DNA of 64,000 bases from Panopea generosa (lineage: Eukaryota; Mollusca; Bivalvia; Adapedonta; Hiatellidae): contig CM055897.1 of assembly GCA_029582155.1 (NCBI GenBank), positions 90,917,329 to 90,981,328 of the forward strand, in the 5' to 3' direction. Under the pieces are notes generated by a model that searched no databases, was not told the origin of the DNA, and was given only the letters and a program-made list of their open reading frames with translations. Position 1 is the stretch's first letter; each line of letters starts with the position of its first letter. The position numbers and the translations under genes are program-made. Positions 10,801 through 61,901 of the stretch are shown here, piece after piece.

Positions 10801-11157
10801 CCATCACCAATCACATATGATACAGGATTCCAATACAAGTGAAAAGTAATTACAGGATACAATCACAAGTGACATTTAATTACAGGATACCATCATAAAA
10901 TTACAAGATATCATCACAAGTCACATGTGATTATAGGATACCATCACAAGTGACATGCAATTACAGGATACCATCACAAGTGACATGTACTTACAGAATA
11001 CCATCATTGAATTACAAGATACTATCACATGTCAATTATAGGATTACATCACAATTGACATGTTATTACAGAATACAATCGTAAGTGACATGTAATTATA
11101 GGATACAATCACAAGTCACATGTGATTACAGTTCACCGTCACAAACCACATGTATCT
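4886..11157. repeat. Giant 30-bp minisatellite, left block
   Basis: About 209 units of 30 bp, each containing GGATACCATCACAAG. From about 4890 to 5850 and from 6541 to 10800 the period stays exactly 30 with no indels. There are two sequence types. At 4886-6590 the units carry the perfect palindrome TCACATGTGA. At 6593-10800 nearly all carry TGACATGTAA instead. Higher-order structure is visible: a 180-bp (six-unit) period at 5101, 5281 and 5461, and in the centre a variant unit ending TTATTATAGAAGT recurring every few units in repeated patterns. Because 30 is a multiple of 3 and the central variant lacks a stop in one frame, the minus strand is open for 1405 codons (6593-10810) as an M-V-S-C-N-Y-M-S-L-V type decapeptide. 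I regard this as a by-product of the repeat, not a gene. Confidence 0.97.
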
Positions 11158-11790
11158 AACTTTCATTTAATATTAACAGACATGGTTATTCCCCCCCACC
11201 CCCTACCCCCAATTTTTCCCTATTTACTCAGTGAAAATATTGTACAAGAAATGACCAATGCAGTATGCATTAGTTTAGCTTATTCATATTCAGATACCGT
11301 CTGTGCACCTGATATTTCATTTCAATAAGGTTTTCATTAATCTCAAAATCCTGATATTTTTGTCTTTTTTCACTGTTAGTTTTTTTTTACTTTGTATTAT
11401 TTTGCTTTATTTTGTATAGTTTTAAGTTGACTCTCAGTCTGTGTATGTATGTACCTATTCATGCTTGTGCTCATATCCATGTGCCTGTGAAGATGAGGTA
11501 TATGCACATATGATTGCAAGTCTGTCTGCATGTCTGCTTGTACCTCACCACGCTTTTGTGCATGTATGTCTGTAATTGTATGTCTCTGTGAGTGTAAGTG
11601 TAATGTAGCGTTCTGCAATTTGAATGTTAAGTTATTGTCCGTATGCTTAACTATATTTAATATTGATATATTTTTGTATGTGATTTGCTGCTCACATTCA
11701 TGATTACAATTTTCTTTATGTAATAACATAAAATTATGTTGCTCTCCACTAATGGAGGGAATAAAGAATATATATATATATATTATACAT
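11158..11790 (+). mobile_element. Non-LTR retroelement fragment inserted in the minisatellite
   Basis: This unique sequence interrupts the 30-bp array. It ends CTAATGGAGGGAATAAAGAA followed by a TA microsatellite, and then the array resumes (CATAACAGGATACCATCACAAG). The ending matches the element at 1-244. No coding domain is visible, so it is a 5'-truncated LINE or a SINE-like 3' end. Its position inside the array shows it arrived after the array formed. Confidence 0.6.
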
Positions 11791-14310
11791 GTCATAACAG
11801 GATACCATCACAAGTCACTTGTGATTACAGGATACCATCACAAGTTATATGTGATTAAAAGATACCATTATAAGTCACATGTGATTACATGATACCATCA
11901 CAAGTCACATGTGATTACAGGATATCATGACAAGTCACATGTGATTAAAGGATACCATCACAAGTCACATGTGATTACAGGATACCATCACAAGTCACAT
12001 TAATGAGACTAAAGGATACCATCATAAGTTACATGTAATTACAGGACTCATACGTGATTACAGGATACCATCACAAGTCATTTGTGATTACAGGATACCA
12101 TTACAAGTCACATTAATGAGACTAAAGGATACCATCACAAGTCACATGTAATTACAGGACTCACATGTGATTACAAGATACCATCACAAGTCATTTGTGA
12201 TTACATGATACCATTACATTTCACATGTGATTACAGGATACAATTACAAGTCACATGTGATCATAGCATACAATCACAAGTCACATGTGATTACATGATA
12301 CCATTACAAGTCACATGTGATTACAGGAGATCATTGCAAGTTGCATGTGATTACAGGAGACCATTGTAAGTTACATGTGATTACAGGAGACCATTGCAAG
12401 TTACATGTGATTACAGGATACCATTTCAAGTGGCATGTGATTACAGGATACCATTTCAAGTCGCACGTGATTACAGGATACCATTTCAAGACACGTGTGA
12501 TTACAGGATACCACTACAAGGCACATGTGATCATAGCATACAATCACAAGTCACATGTGTTAACAGCATACCATTACAAGCTACATGCGATTACAGAATA
12601 CCATTATAAGTTACATGTGATTACAGGATACCAATGCAAGTTTCATGTGATTACAGGATACCATTGCAAGTCACATGTGATTACAGGATACAATCACAAG
12701 TCACATGTGATTACAGTATATCATTACAAGTCACATGTAATTACAGGTTACCATTACAAGTCACATGCAATTAACAGTACAGGATAACATTACAAGTCAC
12801 ATGCGATAACAGGATACCATTACAAGTCACATGTAATTACAGGTTACAATAACAAGTCACATGCGATAAAGGATACCATTACAAGTCACATATAGTTACA
12901 GGATACCATCACAAGTCACATGTGATTACAGGATAGCATTACAAGTCACATGTAATTACAGGATACCATCACAAGTCAAATGTGATAACAGGATTCATAC
13001 GTGATTACAGGGTACCATCACAAGTCATTTGTGATTACAGTATACCATTACAAGTCATATGTGATTACAGTATACCATTACAAGTCACATGTGATTACAG
13101 GATACCATTACAAGTCACATGTGATAACAGGATACAATCACATGTCACATGTGATTACAGGATACCATAACAAGTCACAGTGATTACAGGATACCATTAC
13201 AAGTCATATGTGATTACAGGATACCATCACAAGTCATATGTGATTACAGGATACCATTACAAGTCATATGTGATTACAGGATACCATTACAAGTCATATG
13301 TGATTACAGGATACCATCACAAGTCATATGTGATTACAGGATACAATCACATGTCACATGTGATTACAGGATACCATAACAAGTCACATGTGATTACAGG
13401 ATACCATTACAAGTCATATGTGATTACAGGATACCATCACAAGTCATATCTGATTACAGAGTACCATTACAAGTCACATGCAATAACCAGTACAGGATAC
13501 CATTACAAGTCACATGTGATTAAAGGATACCATTACAAGTCACAGGTGATTACATGATACCATCACAAGTCACATTTACGGGATAACAGGATACCATCAC
13601 AAGTCACATGTGATTACAGGAGTCATACATGATGCCAGTACACCATTACAAGTCACATGTAATAACAGGATACCATTACAAGTCACATGTAATTACAGGA
13701 TACCATTACAAGTCACATGTGATTACAGGATACCATTACAAGTCACATGCGATTACAGGATACCATCACAAGTCATATGTGATTACAAAATACCATTACA
13801 AGTCATATGTGATTACAGGATACTATCACAATTCATATGTGATTACAATATACCATTACAAGTCAAACGTGATTACAGGATACCATCACAAGTCACATAT
13901 GATTACAGGATACAATTACAAGTCACACGTGATTACAGGATACCATCACAAGTCACATGTGATTACAGGATACCATAACAAGTCACATGCGATTACGGGA
14001 TACAATCACAAGTCACATGTGATTACGGGATAACATCACAAGTCACATGTGATTACAGGATACCATAACAAGTCACATGCAATATCAGGTTACCATAACA
14101 AGTCGCATGCAATAACAGGATACAATCACAAGTCACATGCAATAACAGGATACAATCACAAGTCACATGTGATTACAGGATACAATCACTAGTCACATGC
14201 GATAAAAGAATACAAACATAAGTCACATGTGATTACAGGAAACCATTACAAGTCACATGCGATAACAGGATACCATTACAAGTCACTTATGATTAAAGAT
14301 TACATGGCCT
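11791..14310. repeat. 30-bp minisatellite, right block
   Basis: The array continues after the insertion with about 84 units. Here most units carry TCACATGTGATTACAGGATA, the palindromic form also seen at the far left edge, and often ACCATTACAAG in place of ACCATCACAAG. Indels are more common than in the left block (for example around 12000-12180, 12770 and 13580), so this block is less homogenised. Several multi-unit segments recur (about 13000-13180 and 13190-13480). Confidence 0.95.
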
Positions 14311-17066: not shown

Positions 17067-17906
17067 TTAAAGAATTTGATTCAATGTGTGGAGTAGAGAC
17101 AGTACAGAGTCACTCTGGTCCCATGTGATCAGTCCTGTTTCTGTCACGTGGTATGTTACATGTGGCTCTTGTTGTCTTCTTATTGCTACCAGTTTTAAAC
17201 CATCAACTACAACCACCAGACCATATATTAAGTCTTGGTTTACACCCAATGCTGCTAAACACAATGATACAATATGTTCTGTTGCTGCATAAACATGTAA
17301 ATCCAGATCTGATTGTGTAGGATTATCCCAGGATGACACATTCACAACAACTTTCACAGTCACTTGTTGTGTTACAACCTGTGGTTGAATTGGTTCTGCT
17401 GGCACGATGTTTGGCACTGGCACATCTCTGGTTTCATAAAACAAAATATCACATTTATAAGGCTGGAAGTACCTGTGATGTACTGCCGTTTTTAATCTAT
17501 AGTTATCTGGATTTCTTAACAGAGCATTTATGTCAGGTTCATGTTCTGGCGGCACCATAGTGGTAGAGTCTGTTTCCACATTATAATCATCATCCATGAG
17601 TGACCTTGACCTAGATCTTAACAAAATTTTGTAAGTAAGCTGCCTTTCCTCATCACCCTCCATCTCTCTAACTCGTTTTCTACCACGCAGCTGAGTGTCA
17701 TGGTAACCATACATTAAACAATGTGTTACCCCATCTCTTATGCTTGCATCTGTGGATATTTCATTTGGTGCCATGACCACACCCTTCCTACCAAACACAC
17801 GGCATGCTGGGAGAAGTTCCAGCAGCAACTGTTTAACACTGTCTTTTCCATTATTTAATCTTCCAAGGAGAGTTTGTATAAAATCTTCGACTGCAACACT
17901 GTCACT
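17067..17906 (-). CDS. Exon 4 (terminal) of the uncharacterised gene
   Basis: The acceptor TTTTCAG precedes SDSVAVEDFIQTLLGRL. The exon encodes 279 residues to a TAA at 17067. It contains the only large well-structured part of the protein, so homology searches should start here. Confidence 0.85.
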   Translation of the reverse strand, partial: SDSVAVEDFIQTLLGRLNNGKDSVKQLLLELLPACRVFGRKGVVMAPNEISTDASIRDGVTHCLMYGYHDTQLRGRKRVREMEGDEERQLTYKILLRSRSRSLMDDDYNVETDSTTMVPPEHEPDINALLRNPDNYRLKTAVHHRYFQPYKCDILFYETRDVPVPNIVPAEPIQPQVVTQQVTVKVVVNVSSWDNPTQSDLDLHVYAATEHIVSLCLAALGVNQDLIYGLVVVVDGLKLVAIRRQQEPHVTYHVTETGLITWDQSDSVLSLLHTLNQIL

Positions 17907-20900
17907 CTGAAAACAGAATTCATATAATATAGTCAAACAATACACATACCAATATGTATGGGAACTAGAAAATATGTATATGGGGTATAATTTAACCATT
18001 TTTCCATTTTAGTTGCCTGAAAATAACTATTGGTATTGATGTAAAAGAGAATTAATTTATCTTAAGCATAATTGTATACTGTTGATAAGCAATAACTATT
18101 TTATTAACCTTAAAATCGAAATAGCTACAATAATACTTTCTGCAGTACAAAATTTTAATTTGTGCATAAATTAAATGTAGGTGAAAATGTATTTAAATGG
18201 GAAAATTGAAGATTTTTCTATGAATGCTAGTGCATTAATGGTATTTTAAATACAAATAACAGTTTGAATACTGAATTAAGAGATTTTTTTAAATTCAGCT
18301 TCCTTACCACAATTTGCCATGAACAGTAATAATGTAGAGTTTGTTCTAGTGTGATCAGTAGCTCATAATATATATTCAGGGTTCCCAGTTAATTTGTCCT
18401 ATCACAAAACCAAGATTTACTTTAATAGCTGCTTTCCATACATCCAAAGACAGATAAATACAAATTTTATTGCAATTTTCAAGATAAATATATCTCTTGA
18501 AATAAATTACCATAAAACAAACATTTACATACCCAATAGCCTGCAGGCTGTAGTGTTTTTCTTAAATCTAAGCATTTTTGGTCAAGTCCTGTCCTATCAA
18601 ACTTATTTTCAGGACCTCCTCTCCAAACATTGTTTTGAAAACCTTCTAACAAGTTTCTAGGTATGATTCCATGTGTACCTGTCATCTGAAAAAGTATACA
18701 GTACTAAACTACAGTTTTAAGACTCCCATTTATCCCTCCCAATGCATTTTTGCAGGGAATACGCAATTGGACACAGGAATATAATACCAATTATGGGGAA
18801 TACTGTTCAAGATGACATCATGAAACTTTGTACACGTATTAACCCAGTGATCTAGTAGTGTTTTTGCTATTAAAAAAATCTCATTGTCAATGTTTTCTGT
18901 TACAATGAAAGAAAAGCAAAATCATGAAATTCTCTCCAAAACCATTCAAAATAACTTTGTACACATGTCAACCTAGTGAACCAGTAATGCCTTTTGCTAT
19001 TTGAGAGTTTTCATTTTTCAATATTTTTTTCTTTTACCATGGAAAATATAGTAAAAATTACAAAAAATTGCATTTCAGGAGCACAACTCAAAAACCTTGT
19101 GGTCTAGTAATGTCATTTGGGAGTTTTCATTTTCATATTTCAAAACTCAAAACATCTGAGTAAAATATCCCATGGCACAGGATATTGAAGACTATGTCTA
19201 CTTGTTATTTATGAAACTGTCAAACAACAGGTGTAATATTTTTTATGTGTTATCAAAGCTACTTGTGCATCCTTTCTTAATTTATTCTTGAATGCTTAAA
19301 ATCAGAAAATACTGTAGAATCGGGTAAATAAGTGAATATTAATTTTAGTGAAATACCAGTACTGACATGTGTTGGGAGCTACCTCCACTTATTTCATAAC
19401 TGATTTCACAAATATGAAATTTATCAAATTTATTAAACAGTTCAACATAATTATAATGTGCATGACACAGTTTAAGTTAAAGTATGCTATGGCTATTCCG
19501 CGTTGTCTCTATGTTGGTCTGTTTTGATAACGAGTAAGATTTCCATTTTAAAGGAGTTTTATCCATGATTAATATACACAAAATGACCACAAACAAACTG
19601 TTATGTATAACAACTTGAGCAATATACTAGTATCTAGTTTGTGTTTATAGTTGCTAAAAACCATTCAAACAACATGATTTTTGGAAAATGATTACGCTTC
19701 AATAGATGTGAAATACTTTTGTAACAATATATATTTGACGTTGACAGGCTACTCAACAGATAAGAACACTTTTCACCTTTATACACAATACTAGTAACCA
19801 AGTGTCACGGTATTGATAAAGACTGTTAGCAAGGTTTTTAGCCCCTAATTTGTTCTGATGTATTGGGATATATGCCTATTTTTAACACAAAATTATGATA
19901 AGATTTTAGCATGCGCTTATTATCGCATATAGAATGACGGTAAGTCTGTATGCGCTTAATTTTGGTAAACACTTATATTCAAGTATGTGCTTATTTACCA
20001 AATTCTATAGTATTAAGGTCAGTTTCTTAAATATTGTTAGTCATGGCAAGAAGATAATTTCCCCAGTTTTGGTCTAATTGCATACAACCTATATATAAAG
20101 CAGTTGAACCATTTTTGATCTATGGCGATGAAATGACATAAAAAGATCCTTTTTAGCTGATATTTTGTATGCAGTGTTTTTTCTCTTGTGCATATGATAT
20201 AGTATTTGCAGCTGTTTTCCCACGATGATTAAATTTACCTTGATTACAAAGTTTGAACATTAATTATTTTACAAATATAATCCATTATACAATCTAATCT
20301 TGCATATTATCAGTAGTTCTGATGAAAAAAGTTACAATTTGTCTTCATTAAGTGGTATAAAAAAAGAAGTAAAAATCTGTAGAATACATGTACTATTATT
20401 GTACTGAAATTTCATTAAATCATTAAAAATTGATTAAAATGTCCGATCATATATAATGAAAAGAATGTTACTCAATTATTGAAAATTGCAGTCAAGATAA
20501 CTACAATATTGAAACTCTAAACTGCATGTGATATTCTACAATTTGAATGAACAGGTTACTCTACCTGATTCAAGATGGCATTTTTGGCATGTCTCATAGT
20601 ATTTGTAAACTCATCCCATAGTGCAGGCCGGTAACCAGCTGCTGGGACTGGGACAAGTTGTAAGTTTGGTGGTACTGGAGGCCTTGATGGAGCATTCGGC
20701 CAAATGACAGGACAAAACTGGTCATCACCGATCACTGGACGTACAATACCTTTGTCAACTTTTTGGAAACTAACTCCTTTTATTTCTCTCAACTCGTCCA
20801 ATGCATTTCCTGGATCATTGTCAAACCCCAAACAAGTAATATATCCATTTGGTCTGAAAAAATAAAATAACATAGTATAGGGTTTATTACTACATTTATA

Positions 20901-23680: not shown

Positions 23681-24489
23681 TTTCTATCGCAAGTGGACGA
23701 TTGCAGCTTGCTTCTTGATTTAGCATGGATGCCTTGTCATATGACATAGTGTTCCGTTTTAAATACATTTATATTATTAAAGTCTATACGTTCTTACTAT
23801 ATTTTTGATACGAATATCTTTGGCATCACTCTTCTATGTAAACTATGGAATTACAATGGTAGTCCGTGTTCGTACCGCACATTGAACAGTACATTACACC
23901 CTTTTGAATATTCGTTGCTATACATGATAAAAAATAAAATTATTGAACCATTCAACCACCCATTCGATTAAAAACAACACCCTCATATACAGAAAAAAAT
24001 CAACAACAAAACAACGCACACGTTAGCATGTGCTGAAAAATAGAACAAAGCAAAACCACTATTAACAACAATTCCTGTTTGAGTAACAAAACAAATTTTA
24101 ATACTTTTAACGTATGTTCCGGCAAACATGATAGAAATAATAAATAAAAAACACATCATCATGTATAGCAATTGGTTATTATTATTCCATTGGCACAATA
24201 TTGTATTTATTAACATCAAAAGTAGAAAGTTATGATGCTATTAAATGCTATCCATCGCTTTCCGCCATTAATTATAGTAATGAAACGATGACACCAAGAG
24301 GGAATCACAAACTATATTTATGAGTTAAAATTTTCAATAATTGGTTTTACATGTATATAAAAGAAACTTGCTTTGATAAGCGTCTATATATGGTGTGAAC
24401 AAAGTCAAAGGTTATTGAAAGCAAACTCAATATTTGATTATCGTCTTTCGGAATTAAACTTGAATCTAACCATAACCATAACATTCTTA

Positions 24490-26315
24490 AGTAACTAGAT
24501 TCATACAAGCTACATAGCACATTCATGAGGAACTAGATTTATACAAGCTACATAGCACATTCATGAGGAGCTAGATTCATACAAGCTACATAGCACATTC
24601 ATGAGGAACTAGATTCATACAAGCTACATAGCACATTCATAAGGAACTAGATTCATACAAACTACATAGCACATTCACGAGGAGCTAGATTCATACAAGC
24701 TACATAGCACATTCATAAGGAACTAGATTCATACAAGCTACATAGCACATTCATAAGGAACTAGATTCATACAAGCTAAATAGCACATTCTCAAGGAACT
24801 CGATTCTTATAAGCTATATAGCACATTCATAACGAGCTAGATTTATACAAGCTACATAACACATTCATAAGGAACTAGATTCATACAACTTAAATAGCAT
24901 ATTCATAAGGAACTAGATTCATACAAGCTAGATTCATACAAGCTAAATAGCACACACTTAAGGAACTAGATTCATACAAGCTATATAGCAAATTCTAAAG
25001 GAACTAGATTCAATCAAGCTAAATAGCATATTCTTGAGGAACTATATTCATACAAGCTAAAAAGCATATTCATAAGGAGTAGATTCATACAAGCTACATA
25101 GCACATTCAGAAGGCACTAGATTCATACAACTTAAATAACACATTCATAAAGAACTAGACTATACAAGCTAAATAGCACACACTTAAGGAACAAGATTCA
25201 ATCAAGCTATATAGCAAATTCTAAAGGAACTAGATTCAATCAAGCTAAATAGCATATTCTTGAGGAACTATATTCATACAAGCTAAAAAGCATATTCATA
25301 AGGAGTAGATTCATACAAGCTACATAGCACATTCAGAAGGCACTAGATTCATACAACTTAAATAACACATTCATAAAGAACTAGACTATACAAGCTAAAT
25401 AGCACTCACTTAAGGAACTAGATTCAATCAAGCTATATAGCAAATTCTAAAGGAACTAGATTCAATCAAGCTAAATAGCATATTCTTGAGGAACTTAATT
25501 CATACAAGCTAAAAAGCATATTTTCAAGGAACTAGATTAATTCAAGCTAAATAGCACATTCTTAGGGCACTACACTCGTACATGCTAAATAGCACATTAA
25601 TAAGGAACTAAATTCATACACGCTATATAGCACATGCACATTGAACTAGATTCATACAAGTTACATAGCACATTCTTAAAGCACTAGACTCGTACATGCT
25701 AAAAAGCACATTCATAAGGAACTAAATTCATACAAGATAAATAGCACATTCTTAAGGCACCAGAATCGTACATGCTAAATAGCACATTCATAAGAAACTA
25801 TATTCATACAAGATAAATAGCACATTCTTAAGGCACCAGACTCGTACATGCTAAATAGCACATTAATAAGGAACTAAATTTATACACGCTAAATAGCACA
25901 TGCACATTGAACTAGATTCATACAAGTTACATAGCACATTCTTAAAGCACTAGACTCGTACATGCTAAATAGCACATTCATAAGGAACTAAATTCATACA
26001 CGCTAAATAGCACATTCATAAGGAACTAGATTCATACAAGCTACATAGCACATTCTTAAGGCACTAGACTGGTACAAGCTAATAGCACATTCATAATGAA
26101 CTGTATTCACACAATATAAAATGCATACTCAAAAGGAACTAGATTCATACACGTTAAATAGCACATTCATCTGGCACTAGATTCGTACACATTAAATAGC
26201 ACATTCATCTGGCACTAAATTCGTACACATTAAATAGCACATTCCTCTGGCACTAGATTCATACATGCTAAATAGAACATGCATAAGGAACTAGATTCAT
26301 ACAAGCTAAATAGCT
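24490..26315. repeat. 38-bp minisatellite
   Basis: About 48 units built on GGAACTAGATTCATACAAGC and TACATAGCACATTCATAA. The left part (24500-24790) is homogeneous and the right part has more substitutions and small indels. Longer blocks recur, for example 25050-25230 and 25260-25440. Confidence 0.95.
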
Positions 26316-38055: not shown

Positions 38056-40910
38056 ATGTAATCAGATATCATTGGCTTTCACTGCAGCAGTCTAACGTGC
38101 TGTGTAACAACGTCATCATTGGCTATCACAACAGCAGTCTTACGTGCTGTGTAACAACTTCATCATTGGCTGTCACAGCAGCAGTCTTACGTGCTGTGTA
38201 ACGACGTCATCATTGGCTATCACAGCAGCAGTCTAACGTGCTATGTAACGACGTCATCATTGGCTATCACAGCAGCAGTCTTATGTGCTGAGTAACAACG
38301 TAATCATTGGCTATCACAGCAGCAATTTTACGTGCTGTATAACAACGTCATCATTGGCTATCACAGTAGCAGTCTAACGTGCTGTGTAACAACGTCATCA
38401 TTGGCTATCACAGCAACAGTATAACGTGCTGTGTAACAACGTCATCATTGACTACAACAGCAGCAGCCTCACGTGCTGTGTAACGGTGTAACGACGTCAT
38501 CATTGGCTACCACAGCGGCAGTCTAACATACTGTGTAACAACGTCATCATTGGCTACCACAGCAACAGTATAACGTGCTGTGTAACAACGTCATCATTGA
38601 CGATCACAGCAGCAGTCTGACATGCTGTGTAACAACGTCATCATTGGCTATCACAGCAGCAGTCTAACGTGCTGTGTAACAACGTCATCATTGGCTACCA
38701 AAGCAACAGTATAACGTGCTGTGTAACAACATCATCATTGACTAGCACAGCAGCAGTCATACGTGCTGTGTAACAACGTCATCATTGACAACCATAGCAG
38801 CAGCCTCACGGGCTGTGTAACGGTGTAACGAGGTCATCATTGGCTACCACAGCAGTAGTCTAACGTGCTGTTTAACAACGCTATCGTTGACTATCACGGC
38901 AGCAGTCTAACATGCTATGTAACAATGTTATCATTGACTATCACAACAACAGACTAACGTGCTGTGTAACAACGTCATCATTGACTATCACAGCAGCAGT
39001 CTTACGTGCTGTGTAACAAATATCATTGGCTAAAACAGCAGCAGTCTCACGAACTGTGTAACAACGTCATCATTGGCTATCACAGCAGCTGTCTAACGTG
39101 CTGTGTAACAACGTCATCATTGGCTATCACAGCAGCAGTCTAGCGTACTATGTAACAACGTCATCATTGGCAATCACAGCAGCAGTCTAACATGTTGTGT
39201 AACAACGTAAGCATTGACTATCACAGCAGCAGTCTAACGTGCTGTGTAACAATGTCATCATTGGCTATCACAGCAGCAGTCTTACGTACTGTGTAACAAC
39301 GTCATCATTGGCTATCACAACAGCAGTCTAACATGTTGTGTAACAACGTAATCAATGACTATCACAGCAGCAGCCTAACGTGCCGTGTAACAACGTCATC
39401 ATTGACTATCACGGCTGCAGTCTAAAGTGCTGTGTAACAATGTCATCATTAGCTTTCACAACAGCAGTCTTACGTGCTGTGTAACAACGTCACCAATGGC
39501 TACCACAGCAGCAGTCTAACGTGCTGTGTAACAACGTCACCATTGACTATCACAGCAGCAGTCTTACGTGCTGTGAAACAACGTCATCATTGGCTACTAC
39601 AACAGCAGTCTAACATGCGCATGAATAACATAATCATTGACTATCACAGCAGCAGTCTTACGTGCTGTGTAACAACGTCATCATTGGCTACTACAACAGC
39701 AGTCTAACATGCGCATTAACAACATAATCATTGACTATCACAGCAGCAGTCTAACGTGCTGTGTAACAACGTCATCATTGACTATCACAGCATTAGTCTC
39801 ACGTGCTGTGTAACAACGTCATCATTGGCTTTCACAGCAGCAGTCTAACGTGCTGTGTAACAACGTCATCATTGACTATCACAGCAGCAGTCTTTCGTGC
39901 TGTGTAACAACGTCATCATTGGCTATCACAGCAGCAGTCTGACTTGCTGTGTAACAACGTCATCATTGGCTATCACAGCAGCAGTCTTACATGCTGTGTA
40001 ACGACGTCATCATTGGTTACCACAGCAGCAGTCTCACGTGCTGTGTAACAACGTCATCATTGGCTACTACAACAGCAGTCTAACATGTGCAGTAACAACG
40101 TAATCATTGACTATGACAGCAGCAGTCTAACGTGCTGTGTAACAAGGTCATCATTGGCTATCACAACAGCAGTCTAACATGCTGTGTAACAACGTCATCA
40201 TTGGCTACTACAACAGCAATCTAACATGCGCAGTAACAACGTCATCATTGGCTACCACAACAGCATTCTAACGTGCTGTGTAAAAACGTCATCATTGACT
40301 ATCACAGCGGCAGTCAAATATGCGCAGTAACTACGTCATCATTGGCTACCACAGCAGTAGTCTCACGTGCTGTGTAACAACGTCATCATTGACTACCACA
40401 GCAGCAGTCTAACGTGATGTGTAACTACGTCACCATTGTCTATCACAGCAGCAGTCTAACATGTTGTGTAGCAACGTCATCATTGGCTACCACAGCAGCA
40501 GTCTCACGTGCTGTGTAACAACGTCATCATTGGCTACTAGAACAGCAGTCTCACGTGCTGTGTAACAACGTCATCATTGACTATCACAGCAGCAGTTTCA
40601 CGAGCTGTGTAACAACGTCATCATTGACTACTACAACAGCAGTCTAACATGCACAGTAACAAAGTCATCATTGGCTACTACAGCAGCACTCTAACGTGCT
40701 GTGTAACAACGTAATCATTGACTATCACAGCAGCAGCCTAACAAGCTGTGTAACAACGTCATCATTGACTATCACAGCAGCAGTCTAACATGCGCAGTAA
40801 CAACGTCATCATTGGCTACCACAGCAACAGTATCACGTGCTGTGTAACAACGTCATCATTGGCTACCACAGCAGCCATCTCACTCACGTGTTGTGTAACA
40901 ACATTTTATC
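38056..40910. repeat. 47-bp minisatellite, about 60 copies
   Basis: Units contain AACAACGTCATCATTGGCTA, then TCACAGCAGCAGTCTAACG and TGCTGTGT. Each unit has an inverted repeat, CACAGCA ... TGCTGTG, with about 11 bases between the arms, so each could form a small hairpin. Each also holds ATTGGCT (an inverted CCAAT box) five bases from ACGTCA (a CRE half-site). A second unit type with AACATGCGCAGTAAC recurs in the right half. Confidence 0.97.
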
Positions 40911-50812: not shown

Positions 50813-52585
50813 TTATCTGAGATTGTCTGGATGTGCTAGTTTTATTTACTCTGTCTTGTTTAATGATTAGACATTTATCTGAGATTGTTTGAAGGCGCTA
50901 CTGTCTTGTTTTATGATGTTACCTTTATCTGAGATTGTCTGGAGGCGCTACTGTCCTGTTTTTTGACGTGACACCGGAGAGAAGCTTTTTTTAAGATTGT
51001 CTGGATGCACTAGTTTTATTTACTCTGCCTTGTTTATGATGTGACATTTATCTGAGCTTGTTTGGAGCCGTTACTGTCTTACGGTCTTTTTTTATGGTGT
51101 GAAACCGGAGAGAAGCTTTTATCTGAGATTGTCTGGATGCGCTAGTTTTATTAACTCTGTTTTGTGTTATGATGTGACATTTATCTGAGATTGTCTTGAA
51201 GCGCTACTGTCTTGTTTTATGATGTGACACCTGAGAGAATCTTTTATCTGAGATTGTCAGGAGATGCTACTGTCTTGTTTCATACTATGACACCAGAGAG
51301 AAGCTTTTATCTGAGATTGTCTGAAGGCGATAGTTTTATTTACTGTGTGTTGTTTTATGATGTGACACTGGAGAGAAGGTTTTATCTGAGATTGTCTGGA
51401 GCCGTTACTGTCTTACTGTCTTGTTTTATGATGTGACACCGGAGAGAAGCTTTTATCTGAGATTGTCTGGATGCGCTAGTTTTATTTACTCTTGTCTTGT
51501 GTTATGATGTGACATTTATTTGAAATTGTCTGGAGGCGCTACTGTCTTGTTTTATGATGTGACACCAGAGAGAAGCTTTTATCTGAGATTGTCCGGAGAC
51601 GCTACTGTCTTGTTTTAAGCTGTGACACCGGAGAGAAGCTTTTATCTGAGATTGTCTGGATGCGCTAGTTTTATTTACTCTTGTCTTGTGTTATGATGTG
51701 ACATTTATTTGAAATTGTCTGGAGGCGCTACTGTCTTGTTTTATGATGTGACACCAGAGAGAAGCTTTTATCTGAGATTGTCCGGAGACGCTACTGTCTT
51801 GTTTTAAGCTGTGACACCGGAGAGAAGCTTTTATCTGAGATTATCTGGATGCGCTAGTTTTATTAACTCTGTCTTGTTTATGATGTGACATTTATCTTAG
51901 ATTGTCTGGAGGCGCTACTGTCTTATTTTATGATGTGATATGGAGAGAAGCATTTATCTGAGATGGTCTTGAGGCGCTACTGTATTGTTTTATGATGTGT
52001 AATTTATCTGAGTTTGTCAAGAGGCGCTACTGTATTGTTTTATGATGTGAACGGAGAGAAGCTTTTATCTGGGATTGTCTGGAGGCGCTAGTTTTATTTA
52101 CTCTCTCTCCTATTTGATGATGTGACATTTATCTGTGATTGTCTGGGACGCCACTGTCTTGTTTTATGATGTGACACTGGAGAGAAGCTTTTATCTGAGA
52201 TTGTCTGGAGGAGTTAGTTTTATTTACATTATCTGTTTTGTGTTGTGACACTGGAGAGAAGCTTTTATCTGAGATTGTCTGGATGCGCCACTGTCTTGTT
52301 TTATGATGTGCCATCGGAGAGAAGCATTTGTCTGAGATTGTCTGGATGTGCTAGATTTGTTTACATTATCTGTTTTATGTTGTGACACTGGAGAGAAGCT
52401 TTTATCTGAGATTGTCTGGATGCGCTATTGTTTTTTTTTATGATATGACATTTATCTGAGATTGACTGGAGGCGCTACTGACTTGTTTTATTATGTGACA
52501 CCGGAGAGAAGCTTTTTATCTGAGATTGTCTGGATGCGCTAGTTATATTTACTCTGTCTTGTTTTATGATGTGACATCGCAGTGA
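50813..52585. repeat. ~63-bp minisatellite with two unit types and a 189-bp higher-order copy
   Basis: About 28 units all begin GAGATTGTCTGGA-GCGCTA. Type A continues with TTTTATTTACTCTGTCTTG and GATGTGACATTTATCT. Type B continues with CTGTCTTGTTTTATGATGTG and ACACCGGAGAGAAGCTTTTA. The types are interspersed. A three-unit block at about 51472-51660 is repeated essentially unchanged at 51661-51849, a recent 189-bp duplication. The array ends about 570 bases beyond the stop codon of the DEG/ENaC gene. Confidence 0.95.
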
Positions 52586-53155: not shown

Positions 53156-53283
53156 TTATTTACGTTTTGGTGACTTAAATCGATGCTTGATGAGAGGAAT
53201 TTGTATCAAAAACAAGTCTAATATTTCTGCTATGGTTAGCATACTGGCTCCTATGAAGAGTCCCATCGAGCCACCAATATCGC
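53156..53283 (-). CDS. DEG/ENaC exon 10: TM2 and selectivity filter, stop
   Basis: Acceptor ACATTTCAG. It encodes DIGGSMGLFIGASMLTIAEI and LDLFLIQIPLIKHRF, then KSPKRK and TAA. The GAS filter and acidic TM2 end (E, D) are intact, so a working pore is plausible. The cytoplasmic tail is only about 12 residues. Confidence 0.95.
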
Positions 53284-56200
53284 CTGAAATGTAGAAAAGT
53301 GTCCTTTAACTACCATGATGATATGACTGTAACAAATCCATGTATTTTGATATAAACATATTTCAGTATTAGTTATTTATGTAGGATACTTCTATAAGAC
53401 AGTGTGTAAGGCGAACTCGCAAGGCGAGACACGGGAATTGATGACCCGTTAGGAGATAGTGTGCGGCAGGGTTTTACTATCATTTCTAAACATGCCTGGT
53501 GATACAGTAAATACTAATTAGTGACAATAAACCATTAGTTCGACTCTCACGTACTCTCGGATTCTCTGTTATATGATAAATCACCAGTCAGTGGTCAGAC
53601 GTTCGGAGCCGGTTGGAAAGCGAGAATGGAATTACAATGACTGTTTATGACAAATACATGTAGTGGGATTTTACTCATGTTGTTATTGTCGTGGTTATGT
53701 GTTATTAGCTGCATTAATGAGCATATGATTCCTATAAAAAGAGGATGGAAAAGCGATAAAGTAATATTGCCTGAATTATGCCTTGATATGATCGTATATT
53801 TATATGTAAGTACTAGAAATAGCCGTTAAAAAGTGTTAGTATACTCGGACACTTCTTCAAATTGTTATTTCGTAACAAAATTACCAAATATTATTATTTG
53901 CTTGGCAAAAAAACATTATTTTTATTGTACATTAAAGAAGGTAAAATGCATGAGTTGCAACTTTTTCTTTTGAGTATATCACAAAAAAGACATGTTATAT
54001 AGCATATTTACAGTCTGTTTATTAGGTAAGTTAATATATATGTCCAAAAAGAAGTGTAAAACAGTAAAGTACAAAACATGATTACTTACATATCAAAGCA
54101 AAAAAATCGTACGCCTTCTGCTGTGTGATCTGTTCATAACTCAACTGTCGAAAAAACACGTCCAGTTGTAAAAAGTTTTGCCTGAAATTTAAATATAATA
54201 TATGTACAATATCTTAGTATTTCATTATTATGGTTTGGCATTATAATATGCTTGTGCCAATATAGACGTGTTAATGTGCATAGTGAATAAACGTTATAAA
54301 GTGTGTATGTTACTTTGTATAGTCATTTATCATGGGTGTGGGAGAGTTTCAATTATTGGGGTGGGGTGGGGACGCGGATGCAACCTGGGGAGAGAGTGTA
54401 TGAGGATGTACTTCAAGGCTCCAAAGTATATGCTGAAACTGAATATTGGGGTAGGGGGGGGGGATGGGGGGACGGGCGTTGGCCGCCTTGGCCCCAACTC
54501 CTACGCCTATGTTTGAGTAGTATATGATACTTGACCACATGGAATTGGAATGTTTCATGTAGGCCAATCTAAATCTAAAAAATAAAATGTTTCGCTCACG
54601 TCATCAACTCAACTGAATATGGAAAAATAATGTCTATATATATAACAATAGAATCCATTCAAAGTATCGTTACTCATTACGGTCATTCAAATCTTAAATA
54701 GTTCGAGTCCCGCTCTTTCCAAAAACTTTATGTGAGAAAGTTACTTGCGGAAGGACGATGGTTCTTCTCAGTCTAAATCAGTCTGGTCTTCCTCCACCAG
54801 TAAAACTGGTTATACCATATATAACCTGAAATGCGTTAAACCTCATTAAAAATATTAAATATCTAACAAAAGTAGTTGGTAAACATTGATTGTATTTCAT
54901 TAGGAAACTGAATAAATTCTGAACCTAGAAACCCTTTCTTATTTAAAAAATTAAAAAATAAGTTTAATAAAAGTATTTATAATAATGATAATAATACTAC
55001 TAATAATAAAGACTTGTATAAACGAGAGAACTCATTTGAATAAATTCAATCTTCCATATGGCCCTCAACATATTTACAAAGTAAAACATTATTTAATATA
55101 TGAACAAAAGAAGTAAACAAGTATATACATAAATGTGTAATAATGTATATCAAATTTAATGAGAATTACCCGATTTTTTAGAGTTGCTAAGAATCTTTAC
55201 TCCATTGTAAATATAAAGCTTTGAACTGATTAATATAATTTTTTATGCATTTTTTATATAAGACTGAATAGAGTTCCACAAACAAGAGCCTGAATAAGCA
55301 AACGAATTTCGACATTTCAGAATTAGGCTTAGGAGAATATAACTGTAGATTAGATGATGACCGTAATGTGAGTGTATGGACATTTGCTGTTAGAGTATCT
55401 TTTGGTGTCCTTTCGTTTTGCGCGATATAATGATCCTGTCATTGGTTTATAACATACATGTAAGTTAAACATATATTATTAAATTAGTATTATAAACTAC
55501 CTTAAAAATGTACTGTCAACCTTTATTGAATCCTTGAAAGCCTGTAAATGATTTGTTACATCGGCAAGTGCGACAAAGAAAGCTTCGTCATTATTTGCTA
55601 TGTGTGACCGTACATCAAATTCCTTTATTTTAGTATACTTTGTGTTCCATAGATCGATCACATCTGTAAGGTTTTGAAGAAACTCAGTATTGTTTGTATA
55701 CTCGTAGTACTCTATCATGTCTTCATCGTTGATAATTTTGTTCCAAATAGCATATGTTGGAACTGGAATGACACTCCATATATCATTTAGATATTGTCCT
55801 CTCGACTTAATTTCTTGGAAAAATAATTTCAGTTCACCCTCTATAATATTTGTTTCGTTTGATAGAAAGGTATTAGCCAATTGGGTCAAACTAGTGTTAC
55901 CAAATTCAAGATAGAAATTGAGCTTTGATAGTTTATTTTCCAACTCTGGCAAAACATTTTTATTCATTTGTGACATAGTCTCTGTTAATGACTTTATAGT
56001 TTGATTTGCAGAAGATATTTTGGATTTAAATTCTTCCCATGCGTTGTTAAAATCCAACAGTCTCTCCTTCAATATCTTGGAAGGAAGTTCTATTCCTTGA
56101 CTATACACCACACTTTTACTGAACATAAGTGTTCTACATGCATACTGAAATCTTTCAAAAACATAGTTTAGTTGGGTGTCGTTAACTGTACGGTTGAAAT

Positions 56201-59200
56201 AAGCGTTGCTTGTTTCATTGATAAACATTTCTAATACAGAATACAGTAAATCGAAATCGTTCGTACGTAGTTTCGGAACATATTTTTCCATATACCAGTT
56301 ATGATTCAGAGAATGATTAAGTAATGGTTTAGGAATTATAAATGGATTATGAGATCTGTCAATGTCTTCGAATTTATAGTTGAAAATAGCTGTGCCGTTC
56401 AAAAAAGCATCTAAAAGAAGAGACATATTGTCTCTCGCTAATTCAACTACTTCCTGTTTAACAGTTATATAGTCAATTATAAGTCCATACAAAATCTCTC
56501 TTTCAATTTCTTTGAATTCATCCATTGCTGCCAGTCGTCGTATTTGTCTGGCAGTAATCTTGGCAAACTCGGCATATGAGTCAACAAGTGTTCTCAAAGT
56601 TCTTTCTTCCATTGCTTCTCTGCCTCGTAGAAAGTTCTTTTCTATAGCATATTCTTGATATCTATATAAGCGTTCCTTTTTAGTATATGCATTCATCATA
56701 TCGGTAAATACGACCTGTGTTGCATTATGCTGTATCTTAAGACACTTTGTAACGAAATCGATAACCGTTTTGATGTCACTTAAACTTTCATTAAATAGTT
56801 TAATAATTCTTTTAAAGTTATTAAATTCAATTATATCCATACGAGCAGTCACTTCTGAAGCGTGTAATAAATTGTCCACCAGTCTTGATGTTTCTGTTCT
56901 TGTGAGAAGTTTACCAACTAGATAATTCGATATGGTTGCATAGGAAACAGATGGATCAAACAAAGCAAACTGGCAAGGCACTGGACACTGACAATCTACC
57001 CGCATCTCCTTAATAAATGTTTCTGAAAATACATTAACGTATATGTACAGTTGATAGAGGCAAGTAGTTTCATTAACGCGATTAGCGGAACATTTTATTA
57101 TTTTGATAAAAAAGACATGTTTCGTTTTCTATCTTATCTCATTATGATTAAGTAATTCGTAAACTCACGTATTATAACTGAAGCGTTTGTGTATACGTAC
57201 GCATGTAATGGATGGCATAAAAACATAAATTGGTTAATGATTAGATTTAATAGGCAACTAGAAAAAGTGATGCTTTTTGCCTTAAATGCACTTAATGCAC
57301 ATTTAATCACATTTAATCTTAAAATGATTTACATATCTTGCTTTTAATATGTATCTTATCTACATTATATATATTAGAGGTTAGCCTTGACAGAAACACA
57401 TTTTTAAAACAATGTTGAAAGTTAAAACATATAAATATACACGCTATAAGTAAAGCCTTTAAACGCGTATTCTTAAATTATTCATACGGACATGAAACTA
57501 TGTTTTTTTCTTATATCATGATGTGTTGTTATTTGCTAATAGCCACAACATAGTTTCTTTCATCAAATCGTTCCTGAAAATATCAACAAACCTTTAAGTT
57601 CCTCGAGGCAAGTGTAATATTTTTCCAAACTACACACGGGTGGCAAACCTGAAATTAGACATACCTTTATTGAATTTATATAATTTCTGGAGATAAGGAT
57701 TGGAAAAATTACATACACCTTACAATTTATTTTGAAAGTAAGAACTACAACAGTAAAACAATCCCTACAAAACCAACCAAGGTAGAAATTCGCATGCGCA
57801 ATGAATTACCCATGTTCATTGCTCATAGAGCAAGAATATTATAACAGTAATATTCAAATTTCCAAGTAAAAAGTGTATATAAATAATAAGTGCTAAATAC
57901 ACATCTGAAATAAGTAATTAGTTTTTACTAAATATCCTGATGTTCATATTTTTTAGGGATAAAGTTGACTTAATTTGAAAATATAACGCAATATGTTTGT
58001 TGTCTTAATTACATGACATGTGTTTTGACTGTTCTGTTGTGTTGTAACTTTTATTTTAATGTCCGACAGTGGTATGCAACTCTAAATAATATTACAACTG
58101 AAAGCCAATGCAATATTTAAATTATTTACTTAATTATAGGATTTATAGTTATAGGATTTCTATTTGTATTACTGTGACAGATGATAAAATCATTTTAAAA
58201 AAGGATGTTTGCAATATTAATGATTTCATTTAATTAATACTGTTTGTTACGTTTATTTCTCGATTGTATATTGTTAAATATTGATATTTGTAAATGTAAA
58301 ATGTGTCAGTAATAAGAAACAATGTTGCCTGTAGGGGATAGTTTGATAACAATGAAGTTTACCATCAACATGCGGCATGTAACTGTCCCTGCAACCACAC
58401 TTTGCGGCGGCTAACCCTACCAGACAATCAGCGTAACATTCCTCAGTCGTATAATAGTCTGTATGACGTAAGCGTTTAAAATCACACTCGCCGTAAGGCA
58501 TGGGTAAGTTCTCAATCTACAAATACATTTGAAAATAAGGTTTTTTAATAAGTTTTTTTTATTGAACAACATTAACATGACTGTTTTCGACATGCTCTAC
58601 GTACCTTTTAATTTTACACCACTGTTATAAACATATGTACATTACATATTTATTATTCATTAAGCTTCACATTTAAACGATGTGTAGTGTAATACAGCCA
58701 TTATATGTAGTTATATGTATCTAGTGATAAATCCAACATACATAACAATTGGACTCAAATGTGTTATTAATTACATATATTGGTCATTTTTGATTTATCT
58801 GTTTGATTACATATTCATACTGTTTTATCTTATGCATATTAAAATATGTAAAATTGCACATCTATATATTCAATCTTTATCCCTCCCCACCATCATGTGA
58901 CCTATGGTGTCAGATATGGGATCTTCATACATTATAACGGAACGCCGTCACGACGATTCTTAAGAACGAGGCTTGAGGGGAAATTATTACGAACTGAATA
59001 TTAATTTTAAAGCGCATCGTGAAACAATGCAATGAACTGGGTCTGCTATTGTATTTTCTTGGTTGCGTCTCCAAGATCTTTAAATCAAGTAGTACTGGCT
59101 ATCACAACAGAGCTGTCTGACGGCCGTGTAAAATACTTTCGCCCTGTACTTCATTGTTATAGGAAACAGAGTTCATTTTGTCTTGCCCAAATAAAAATAC

Positions 59201-61901
59201 TGCTTAAGTGTAATGGGAGTGGAGAATGTTACCGAGTTAACTACGATTTCGGCTGCGTTCTCAAGAAAAATGGAAGTAGAGAAAGTTGCAGACTTCACTA
59301 CCCTTTTAACTGTATTCTCTTGGTTGCGTTTTGTACTTCAAAACGATACTTTTGTGTTTTCAGATATCGGTTATTATATTTTCGGAAATAAACTTATCTT
59401 AAAGAGCATCGTTGTAATGTTGTCAACAACATTTACAATTAAACCTCGTACATAAACATCTCTTAATAAAGGTAGCCCAACCGTCATGAATTTAACACCC
59501 ACGAAGGCGTGGGTGCCAGTAGGTATTGCTTGTCCAAGCTCGTGTACAAATGGCATTTCTCTAGGATCGTGCAGCAGCATTTTTATTCCAGCGGAATCAT
59601 GCGGTCCCGTCATGTACTCATATTGTTCAACATTTAATGTAAGTCGTAATCCGGAATCGACACCTGAAATGTTGTGTTTAACAGGTATTTATAAGCAATA
59701 TCATTTGATTTGGTCGAATACAAATGATAACTCTAAGGATAAGATAATTACATCGTTAAATGTTGATATTAAATGCTATTTCTGTAATTAATATCATAAT
59801 ATGACTTCAGACATTTCACAATTTAGTTTGACTTTTTAGCGACTGCATACATGCAAGTATATAAGTTAAATAACTGGTTTTAGTAGATATTATAAAGGAG
59901 ACTGTATATTGAGACATGATGAAATTGTAAAAAGATCTACAATACATATACGAATGCAGATTTTTAATTAGTTTTATTTAAACACGACGTGACACTCAAT
60001 CGAACCATAGTTGTGTTTTGTCATGCTTTAACACAGGTGAAAAAGCACTCATCAATTTATACAATTAAAATATAAAAAAATGTTTTGCATAATAAATGTC
60101 TCAATTTATCAACAACAAATTATTTCAAAGTAAGTAATATTATGAACATGATGTCAAAAGTCGTACCAAATCTCATTGGTTTGTAAATAGTTTTCCTTCT
60201 ATCTCGTAATGCACAAAAAATTAAGTTACTTACAAAGCTATACTTGTGTTTGTTTTTTAATATTTAGCGTTATTTTTAATCCATCGAGGATTAACAAAAC
60301 CACTTTTTATTGGGATTCCAAAAGACGAACCAGTACTCGAAAACCGTTACTTCAAGGCGACTGTGGCCGAGCGGGTATTCGAACTGAAGACCCCTGGAAT
60401 GATAGTCAGATGCGCTATCGACTGAGCTAACGGGGTCTGGATGTTACACTGATGATTACGAATACTAACCTGAAGAGGAAACGTACATATCTTCTTCCTT
60501 ACTCATAAAACTGTAACACACGCCGTGGTCTGTCAATTTTCGACTGAAGTCGTCAGCTTTGCACTTTTGTTTATTCCACTCACAGCTGCAGTATACATGC
60601 GAAACATTAAGGATATACTTATTTCCACAAGTTTCTGAGCAAACGTAATAAAAAAGTTGGGTTATTTTACCTTTTACCCATAAATCAACATTTTCAAAGT
60701 TGATGAGTATCGGAACTGGTCCAAACTGATAAGTATGAAATGTTAGGGAAACATTGTTGATATTGTTTTTCTTGTTGTTTTGAAGTGTAATTTGTAAGCT
60801 TATTGCAGGCAGCAGTTAATTCTAAGACCAAATACCTTATCTACAATTCAATCAATCAAATATATTATGTTAATGTAAAATGGGATACTGATTGCTTAGA
60901 ACAATCAGAGTACTACTGTTTTTCAAGACCTTCATATTAAATTACAAACAAACCTAACAATAAGGTCTTCCTTTTGATGTGAAAGGGATGTGTATAAGTC
61001 ATCAAGTTTGAGATCTGTGGCATTGTGTCTCTGAAGATCTTCAACGGTAAGCACGTGCGATTTCGAAAACATATCTTCTATCAGCCGGTAACGTTTGTCA
61101 CGTGCAGCTGATGTGGCTCTGAAACAAAGAGTTGTATTGAATCGTAATGTCAGAAATTAACTGCAAACTGATTATTTTCTAAAACAGTTGTTATTTATTG
61201 TTTCCTTTTCTACTCAGTTTAGATTATATATTTTATACTGATTTATATCAGCAGCTCACCGTTGTTAAAAATGTTCGATCTAATAACTGAGAATATTTCA
61301 TTGGTTTGAGCTTCCGATAGAAAGTCCCGGAGTTTAACTGTTTTTGAGTGAATGTGTCTCTTCCGGGTTACCGCGAAAACAGTAGGAAAGAAATTAATCA
61401 TCCGAACAGCGGAAGATACTTATTTTATTACAATTCATCATTTACTTTTTTACGATAGCTTTTACGACGTTAAATGACATAAATTATATCGCATCTCTTA
61501 TACGTCACGGCATATATAGTTCCACTGCCACAGAAAGGGAACGGCCCTATGGTGAACTATAAATACCGCTAAACTATATCCTTGTCAAGTTTGCGAGAAT
61601 ATTGATATATGTACCAACAAATAAACCAACTAAATCTTGATATACTTCTAGACATAGTGTATTTTGTTAGTTAACCATCCCACATCAACCTCCTTGCACT
61701 TATATACAGGCGTAACACCAATAGTTAACTTACCTGAAAGAATTTTGATTACATATGGTAACTGCGGGGAACTTTAGCGTCTGATTGTAGTTTATTTTTA
61801 CATTCACATTCAGTGGCAGTGATTCGAAGTACTGGACGCGGTCTACAATCTGTATGACCACAGCGGCGAAACATGACAGCACAAACAGGATCCACATACA
61901 T
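53156..61901 (-). CDS. DEG/ENaC-family sodium channel with giant ectodomain insertion (first exon outside window)
   Basis: Nine minus-strand exons: 61734-61901, 60954-61118, 60470-60585, 59482-59663, 58321-58516, 57592-57648, 55501-57022, 54090-54181, 53156-53283. Their phases agree and give 875 residues. Numbered from the first residue in the window: TM1 about 3-25 (MWILFVLSCFAAVVIQIVDR), FPAVTICN 45-52, finger and palm segments with TDHGVCYSF and LPMPYGEC, YTTEECYADC and CGCRDSYMP, CQCPVPC 306-312, then TM2 with GGSMGLFIGAS and the Gly-Ala-Ser selectivity filter at 845-847, and a short basic C-terminus ending SPKRK. These channels are trimeric, amiloride-type sodium channels of the plasma membrane, gated by acid, peptides or force depending on the member. 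Cys 312 to the filter is about 530 residues, against roughly 80-100 in known members. The donors of exons 60954, 59482 and 58321 are weak but give the conserved sequence. The ligand cannot be inferred. Confidence 0.92.
54090..54181 (-). CDS. DEG/ENaC exon 9: pre-TM2 strand
   Basis: Acceptor AATTTCAG, donor ATAT|GTAAGT. It encodes QNFLQLDVFFRQLSYEQITQ and KAYDFFALI, the family's conserved strand leading into TM2. It shows that the channel resumes its normal order after the insertion. Confidence 0.92.
54282..54530. other. G-rich patch in the DEG/ENaC last introns
   Basis: The plus strand has GGGGTGGGGTGGGGA and GGGGTAGGGGGGGGGGATGG, and the intron on the minus strand is correspondingly C-rich. 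Overlapping open frames in three readings are artefacts of composition. Confidence 0.5.
54688..54842 (+). mobile_element. SINE 3' part
   Basis: It contains AGTTCGAGTCCCGCTC (B-box region), GTGAGAAAGTTACTTGCGGA, GGTCTTCCTCCACCAGTAAA and AAATGCGTTAAACCTCATTA. This order is typical of a widespread bivalve tRNA-derived SINE ending CGTTAAAC. The A-box part is missing. Confidence 0.6.
54960..55440 (-). mobile_element. 3' part of a minus-strand non-LTR retroelement in an intron
   Basis: The left side is an imperfect AAT tract ending AATAATAAAGAC. TTCCATATGGCCCTCAACAT and ACAAAGTAAAACATTATTTA follow, related to 44153-44300. It sits 60 bases from the donor side of the giant DEG/ENaC exon. Confidence 0.5.
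55501..57022 (-). CDS. DEG/ENaC exon 8: CxCPxPC plus ~450-residue insertion
   Basis: The acceptor TATTTTCAG starts TFIKEMRVDCQCPVPC. The donor is AG|GTAGTT. After CQCPVPC the exon encodes about 490 more residues where the family usually has a short linker. The extra part has at least 12 N-glycosylation sequons (NES, NAT, NMS, NGT, NHS, NET, NRT, NDT, NQT, NTS, NLT and others), only two cysteines, and long charged amphipathic stretches (MDEFKEIEREILYGLIIDYI, AWEEFKSKISSANQTIKSLT) that suggest a helical bundle. No membrane segment is visible in it, so it should be extracellular. I recognise no domain. Confidence 0.92.
57023..57591 (-). other. Intron between microexon 7 and giant exon 8
   Basis: AT-rich; nothing else seen. 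Confidence 0.5.
57592..57648 (-). CDS. DEG/ENaC exon 7: 57-bp microexon
   Basis: Acceptor AATTTCAG, donor AAAG|GTTTGT. It encodes LPPVCSLEKYYTCLEELK, supplying two of the ectodomain cysteines expected just before CxCPxPC. It is too short to find by length and is supported by phase on both sides. Confidence 0.85.
58321..58516 (-). CDS. DEG/ENaC exon 6: conserved cysteines
   Basis: Acceptor TTTGTAG. It encodes IENLPMPYGECDFKRLRHTD, then YYTTEECYADC and KCGCRDSYMPHVDGKLHC. It ends CAT T|GTTTCT, and the split Cys codon is completed by exon 7. Confidence 0.9.
58517..59481 (-). other. Intron with degenerate ~65-bp internal repeats
   Basis: At about 59040-59340 related blocks recur: AATGGGAGTGGAGAATGTTA, AATGGAAGTAGAGAAAGTTG, and ATTTTCTTGGTTGCGT / ATTCTCTTGGTTGCGT. 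An open frame across them on the plus strand is not supported as a gene. Confidence 0.45.
59482..59663 (-). CDS. DEG/ENaC exon 5: palm domain
   Basis: Acceptor CATTTCAG. It encodes VDSGLRLTLNVEQYEYMTGP through AGIKMLLHDPREMPF to HAFVGVKFMT, the family's G..GxxxxLHxPxExP region. The donor ACG|GTTGGG is weak, but joining here restores the conserved LPMPYGEC. Confidence 0.88.
60275..60440 (-). mobile_element. tRNA-derived SINE in intron of the DEG/ENaC gene
   Basis: On the minus strand the head reads CCCGTTAGCTCAGTCGATAG, CTGACTATCATTCCAGG and CAGTTCGAATACCCGC. The body contains GAGTACTGGTTCGTC, GGAATCCCAATAAAAAGTGG and TTTTGTTAATCCTCG, matching the copy at 29925 in order. It lies 30 bases inside the intron after exon 4. 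Confidence 0.75.
60470..60585 (-). CDS. DEG/ENaC exon 4: cysteine-rich segment
   Basis: Acceptor ATACTGCAG, donor TCAG|GTTAGT. It encodes CEWNKQKCKADDFSRKLTDH and GVCYSFMSKEEDMYVSSS, the family's CxxxxxxC...TxxGxCYxF pattern. Upstream the frame stays open for about 47 residues (to FGPVPILINF). A longer exon using a different donor in exon 3 is therefore formally possible but breaks the conserved spacing. Confidence 0.85.
60954..61118 (-). CDS. DEG/ENaC exon 3: ectodomain finger
   Basis: Acceptor TGTTTCAG. It encodes ATSAARDKRYRLIEDMFSKS to SLSHQKEDLIV. The donor AG|GTTTGT is weak but in phase with the next exon. Confidence 0.85.
61734..61901 (-). CDS. DEG/ENaC exon 2: TM1 and FPAVTICN
   Basis: Acceptor ATTTAAG, donor AG|GTAAGT. 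One base completes a split codon from a first exon that I could not find up to position 64000. It then encodes CMWILFVLSC onward and LKFPAVTICNQNSF. The reading frame differs from the longest open frame here, so it is easily missed. Confidence 0.92.

Follow-up and report, generated by a model that had tools for sequence, protein, structure and literature searches.

A domain-sized insertion, a predicted recognition module, in the knuckle loop of three DEG/ENaC channels of the bivalve Panopea generosa

In the degenerins MEC-4 and MEC-10, the enlarged ectodomain carries its extra domains in the finger and not in the knuckle, the second helix of which is named alpha7. The knuckle is built of two closely linked helices, and its three copies form the upper vestibule at the extracellular face of the channel (PMC6827283). 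Its helix alpha6 borders the finger of the neighbouring subunit and the FMRFamide pocket (PMC11026163) and takes part, across the interface between subunits, in the FMRFamide site (PMC11026163, PMC11993918). Insertions at the knuckle site are already known from the placozoan TadNaC channels, where they are predicted to be loops, and the part of the source describing them mentions no domain of more than 450 residues (PMC6827283); a module of this size at this place is what appears to be new in the gene reported here. The gene (gene A) is located on the minus strand of a 64,000-nucleotide stretch of the Panopea generosa genome (contig CM055897.1, here C4, positions 90,917,329 to 90,981,328; hereafter the window, by the positions of which features are given). 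Gene A and two paralogues, B and C, form a three-member subfamily of mollusc DEG/ENaC channels, their short knuckle loop having been replaced by a sequon-rich, helically periodic domain of ~465 residues; our reading, to which we assign about an even chance, is that this domain works as a recognition module acting on gating.

The closest solved structures belong to the acid-sensing ion channels (ASIC1, ASIC2, ASIC5). Their core aligns with gene A on both sides of the insert, and the equivalents of their K211 and E416 are kept; in contrast, the H73, D78 and E411 equivalents are lost in A, B and C, and 463 residues of A stand in the place of 7 in ASIC2. The FMRFamide-gated FaNaCs (Aplysia, 7yvb; Malacoceros FaNaC1, 8on7), likewise members of DEG/ENaC, possess a knuckle stretch exceeding that of ASICs, with alpha6 adjoining the point at which A is interrupted; unlike A, with its 529 residues from the CxC..C motif to DIGG, they have only 101 (Malacoceros) or 119 (the FaNaC of the same genome), and they form a separate branch of the tree. 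No DEG/ENaC module of more than 450 residues was found in the titles and abstract openings of the Creative Commons-licensed PMC literature, among the matches listed, and mollusc databases might already include the domain without comment.

The long exon and the site of the insertion

Nine exons of gene A, running from 61901 to 53156 on the minus strand with all introns of the GT-AG type, were recognized in the window. They are spliced into one open frame for a protein of 860 residues, counted from the first transmembrane segment (TM1) to the stop codon, which contains TM1, FPAVTICN, the cysteine-rich ectodomain, DIGG with the GAS filter and the second transmembrane segment (TM2). A tenth, putative N-terminal exon with the HG motif is probably located at about C4:90984614, 3.3 kb beyond the window. 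An earlier note, made from the letters of the window, had taken the gene for a DEG/ENaC channel, and this identity was borne out both by the complete TM1-to-TM2 gene and by the Pfam profile PF00858 (ASC), which matched the spliced translation, including the N-terminal exon, with 304.1 bits (cut-off 23.6) in two stretches.

The long exon (57022-55501, minus strand, 1522 bp), directly preceded by an AG acceptor and followed by a GT donor, starts just 5' of the conserved motif CQCPVPC (56973-56993) and is followed by the ordinary pre-TM2 and GAS/TM2 exons. It lies within a stop-free frame of 543 codons (57128-55497, minus strand). From CQCPVPC, 497 residues extend to the next exon boundary, in agreement with the approximately 490 open residues counted previously, and the chance of an open run of 497 codons is ~2e-18, given the base composition of the exon itself. 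The distance from the CxC..C motif to DIGG is 93-97 residues in the C5 genes of the same genome and about 73 in ASIC1 and ASIC2 (67 and 66 residues measured on pieces of the chains, plus 6 and 7 omitted ones); against this range of about 73 to 119, the 529 residues of A uphold the estimate of roughly 450 extra ones. Skipping of the exon is unlikely to yield a working product, because its length equals 1 modulo 3, so that the frame would be shifted and the CxCPxPC motif lost; on this ground we reject skipping as the normal form. The module exons of both paralogues likewise sum to 1 modulo 3. Some splicing inside the long exon is conceivable. Judged by its sequence, the long exon is real coding DNA, for which its conservation in the paralogues is a stronger proof than the probability of the open run.

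When gene A was compared with ASIC2 by phmmer, the alignment ended at ASIC2 residue 389 (query residue 361) and resumed at residue 397 (query residue 825). The MAFFT alignment placed the insert immediately after the equivalent of the knuckle helix alpha6, in A, B and C alike. Residue F453 of the Aplysia FaNaC, named as an alpha6 residue (PMC11993918), falls in the alpha6-equivalent stretch by a hand-counted position; the published alpha6 residue range of Malacoceros FaNaC1 could not be fitted letter for letter to its chain. According to the alignments, the insert should lie in the knuckle loop, that is in the outer, distal crown of the ectodomain, beside the finger of the neighbouring subunit. 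The module proper (55509-56903, minus strand; 465 residues), supported by the ASIC alignment, the paralogues, the sequons and the periodicity, is inserted between the counterpart of alpha6 and the strand that runs on to TM2. Its previous assignment to the ectodomain agrees with this insertion point, but the wrist/thumb side, where it had been placed, is ruled out by the alignments to ASICs; as for its supposed proximity to the pore entrance, it holds for the outer mouth, since the knuckles form the upper vestibule (PMC6827283), and not otherwise.

Composition and conservation of the module

The module comprises 465 residues in A, 464 in B and 471 in C. It contains 13, 11 and 13 N-glycosylation sequons, respectively, against 5.3, 4.7 and 4.3 in shuffled sequences (P 0.001, 0.0026 and 0.0002), and the earlier count of at least 12 is thereby matched in A; five of the six sequon columns common to the three proteins are within the module. 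The modules of A, B and C contain 8, 7 and 4 prolines, 7, 8 and 9 glycines and 2, 1 and 3 cysteines, respectively. The hydrophobicity of the module peaks at 100 degrees (0.273, z 6.0 vs shuffles), the periodicity of the core ectodomain being lower and broader (maximum 0.194 at 90 degrees, a value without shuffle comparison). The helical character ascribed to the module rests mainly on this 100-degree periodicity.

Internal repeats were not detected in the module (hhalign probability of at most 3.1% in 28 of 28 window pairs). No Pfam family matched the A module above its cut-off, the best E-value for the B and C modules among the families listed being 0.079 or worse, and no PDB sequence was retrieved with the single sequence at E up to 10 (best profile E 0.12); thus, the previous statement that no described domain matches held in the Pfam and PDB sequence searches. 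In prokaryotic and viral contigs, each searched with two short peptide patterns, there were 174 and 184 pattern matches, respectively, none of them confirmed at E 1e-3, and a bacterial or viral origin of the module was rejected for want of a confirmed relative in these contigs.

Two further loci encode the module at the same place as in A: B (C4:90869514-90889875), about 80 kb off on the same contig, and C on C17. Both genes were rebuilt exon by exon with GT-AG introns, each yielding a protein of 866 residues, counted in the same way as for A. The protein search of the 1.47-Gb assembly with A as a query revealed the three loci (10 candidates scored, with 5 stretches matching at E up to 0.001), and the search with C, the most divergent copy, revealed the same three and none other (9 candidates scored, 3 matching at E up to 1), both searches having scored the best candidates only; for scale, at least 37 exons of the assembly matched ASC at E up to 0.001. 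Ahead of the motif, the channel core is 74% identical between A and B and 47% between A and C; the module is 57 and 31% identical, respectively, and the part that follows it 82 and 61%. An intron interrupts the module region ~69 residues after CxCPxxC in B and ~40 residues after it in C, and none is present there in A.

The A and B modules differ at 153, 102 and 263 first, second and third codon positions, respectively, out of 466 codons, the third position being the highest. The nonsynonymous distance (dN) between them is 0.33; the synonymous one (dS) was not computable, which we read as saturation. The sole finite dS among the region pairs was obtained by YN00 for the 63 A-B codons after the insert (dN 0.094, dS 0.835, ratio 0.11). 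Purifying selection on the module is therefore suggested by protein conservation and the codon-position pattern, and not by a dN/dS ratio. The best-kept part of the module encompasses A residues 381-530, 53 of 150 being identical in A, B and C (8/60, 21/150 and 28/105 in the rest of the module), and includes the motifs KERLYRYQ...KNFxRxREAMEERTL and IFNYK...FIxPxPLLNxS, kept in all three proteins. Such conservation might be expected if the domain had a specific core or surface.

Kinship, remaining exons and other features of the window

The best PDB matches to gene A were ASIC1/2 (175 bits), followed by FaNaC (122) and ENaC (107). In the 12-row tree, which was built without HyNaC, NeNaC, TadNaC, PPK and BASIC rows, A, B and C grouped with ASIC1 and ASIC2 (100/97), and FaNaC, ENaC and the C5 and C10 genes fell elsewhere. 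The FaNaC branch of this tree, comprising the two FaNaCs and the C10 gene of the same genome, was separate at 99/98, and by this branch and the lower bit score the membership of A, B and C in FaNaCs was ruled out. The C10 gene matched the Aplysia FaNaC with 618 bits over 509 residues and Malacoceros FaNaC1 with 193 bits. Residues H73, D78, E411, E416 and K211 are fairly conserved in ASICs (PMC9949801); two of the five are kept in A, B and C, and the kept E416 equivalent is little informative, because the C5a gene has the same residue.

Of 13 additional stretches taken from the surroundings of other ASC loci, 11 matched rows of the tree. The palm exons of these loci were closest to the C5 rows, as were the TM2 exons on C17 and C18. 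The pre-TM2 exon IYFKDLIFEQVEQQKAYE of two C11 genes (L022, 2228-2109; L025, 728-609) had matches to A and C and to no other row of the 12, so these two genes may belong to the ASIC side while lacking the module. One C11 TM1 exon had B as its best match. The matches of two C8 TM1 exons ranked FaNaC1, then ASIC1, then B. Because of these C11 and C8 exon matches, we do not claim A, B and C to be the sole ASIC-side genes of the genome. Long exons in the C11 genes (C11:66793949 and C11:65661512), suggested by apparent frames of 639-640 amino acids, were rejected, as the DNA shows stops flanking a short exon. As a separate observation, two pairs of ASC genes are nearly identical, L004/L005 (C5:63934300 and C5:64198112, in opposite orientation) and L022/L025 (C11:66.79 and 65.66 Mb), being either recent segmental duplications or assembly duplicates.

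The other exons of gene A, all on the minus strand, are as follows. The exon of TM1 and the adjoining region (CMWILFVLS...FPAVTICNQNSFR; 61734-61901) has GT-AG borders and an ASC match. The finger-region exon (60954-61118) and that with the CxW...HGVCYSF region (60470-60585), both with GT-AG borders, are kept in both paralogues. The palm/beta-ball exon (GLRLTLNVEQYEY; 59482-59663), supported by the ASC match, GT-AG borders and the K211 column, carries the K211-equivalent lysine; it is followed by the cysteine-rich thumb exon (58363-58516; GT-AG borders, 87% identity with paralogue B) and a short thumb exon (GLPPVCSLEKYYTCLEELK; 57592-57648; GT-AG borders). Beyond the long exon, the gene model continues with the exon RQNFLQLDVFFRQLSYEQITQQKAYDFFALI (54090-54181; GT-AG borders), encoding the strand leading to TM2, and ends with the exon DIGGSMGLFIGASML (53156-53283), containing TM2 and the stop codon; the GAS selectivity-filter codons were located by sequence at 53243-53251. 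In an intron of the gene, a tRNA-like stretch was noticed by eye at about 60440-60360 (minus strand); ARAGORN found no tRNA in it, and by its resemblance it is perhaps a tRNA-derived short interspersed element.

A tandem array with a 63/126-bp unit (50901-52541) begins ~600 bp 3' of the channel stop codon. Elsewhere in the window, a minisatellite with a 30-bp unit extends over 4901-14295 (204 copies up to 11006 and 84 more from 11787), giving rise to an open frame of 1405 codons (6593-10810, minus strand), which looks spurious. Other minisatellites have units of 47 bp (38068-40875) and 38 bp (24481-26314). An open frame of 313 codons (17067-18008, minus strand) is not repeat-like by eye.

Possible role of the module

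The gene models, the point of insertion and the protein-level conservation of the paralogues are observed; beyond them, we infer a role of the module in recognition and gating. In the trimer, three modules would crown the extracellular top, each beside the finger of the neighbouring subunit, and each might bind an extracellular partner, being a protein or peptide ligand or the matrix. Binding of the partner would shift the alpha6/finger interface and thereby change gating; in FaNaCs, the same interface is a part of the FMRFamide pocket. Several observations weigh against such a role. Chou-Fasman means hardly favour helix (1.05) over strand (1.01-1.04), and the AlphaFold2 models, made without relatives, were mostly helical but of very low confidence (mean predicted local distance difference test scores of 35 and 39), with no usable fold. 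Hence, the long amphipathic helices supposed earlier are upheld in part, mainly by the periodicity, and the structure prediction was too poor for a fold search. The weak matches to PAH_ZNF598, Laminin_II and Spectrin_Anc-1 were found in one of three members each and lay below the cut-off there. Additionally, the module evolves faster than the core (57% vs 74% identity for A-B, 31% vs 47% for A-C), as a passive shield would too, and gave no finite dN/dS; and the case for recognition is drawn from gene sequence throughout.

Considering these facts, the main rival, possible though clearly less probable than recognition, is that the module senses nothing and serves as a glycosylated shield or passive spacer, or else in assembly or trafficking. 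Sequon enrichment in all three proteins, module identity below that of the core and the lack of both internal repeats and a recognised binding domain in the above searches are consistent with it, but the block of 53 identical residues of 150 in three paralogues goes beyond what a spacer would be expected to need. A special form of the recognition reading, with the module acting as a mechanical tether that binds the extracellular matrix or an opposing cell and pulls the channel open, fits the amphipathic periodicity, the outward-facing insertion site and the mechanosensory nature of the DEG/ENaC members mec4 and mec10 (PMC7992859), yet no matrix-binding domain exceeded the cut-off, and we regard it as distinctly unlikely.

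Also unlikely, albeit compatible with the other readings, is that A, B and C are simply molluscan ASICs, gated by protons and provided with an extra domain: the bit scores, the grouping with ASIC1/2 and the retained K211 and E416 equivalents point to it, whereas three of the five ASIC residues are lost in all the copies, the E416 equivalent is shared with C5a, the tree lacks the rows named above, and no ASIC is reported from the molluscs Acanthopleura and Crassostrea (PMC9949801). Finally, apart from the unusual length of the exon, little would suggest an artefact, i.e., an unspliced intron, a pseudogene or an assembly error. The proteins of B and C are related to that of A but encoded by different DNA, both genes have an intron within the module region, the codon differences are heavy in third positions, and 497 codons are free of stops; a retained intron or a pseudogene is ruled out by the paralogues and the GT-AG gene models, and an artefact of any kind is hardly credible.

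Returning to the recognition module, a more far-reaching and rather tentative version of it, which as a whole is improbable, would make A, B and C an ASIC-lineage channel kept in molluscs, which are reported to have lost ASICs, with a ~465-residue knuckle receptor of a new fold, where an extracellular protein or matrix partner, and not protons, gates the channel through the subunit border on which FMRFamide acts in FaNaCs. Anyway, DEG/ENaC ectodomains determine what the channels sense, and a domain-sized knuckle insertion in three paralogues represents a natural experiment on wiring an added extracellular module to gating. The finding also bears on the question of whether molluscs have truly lost the ASIC lineage.

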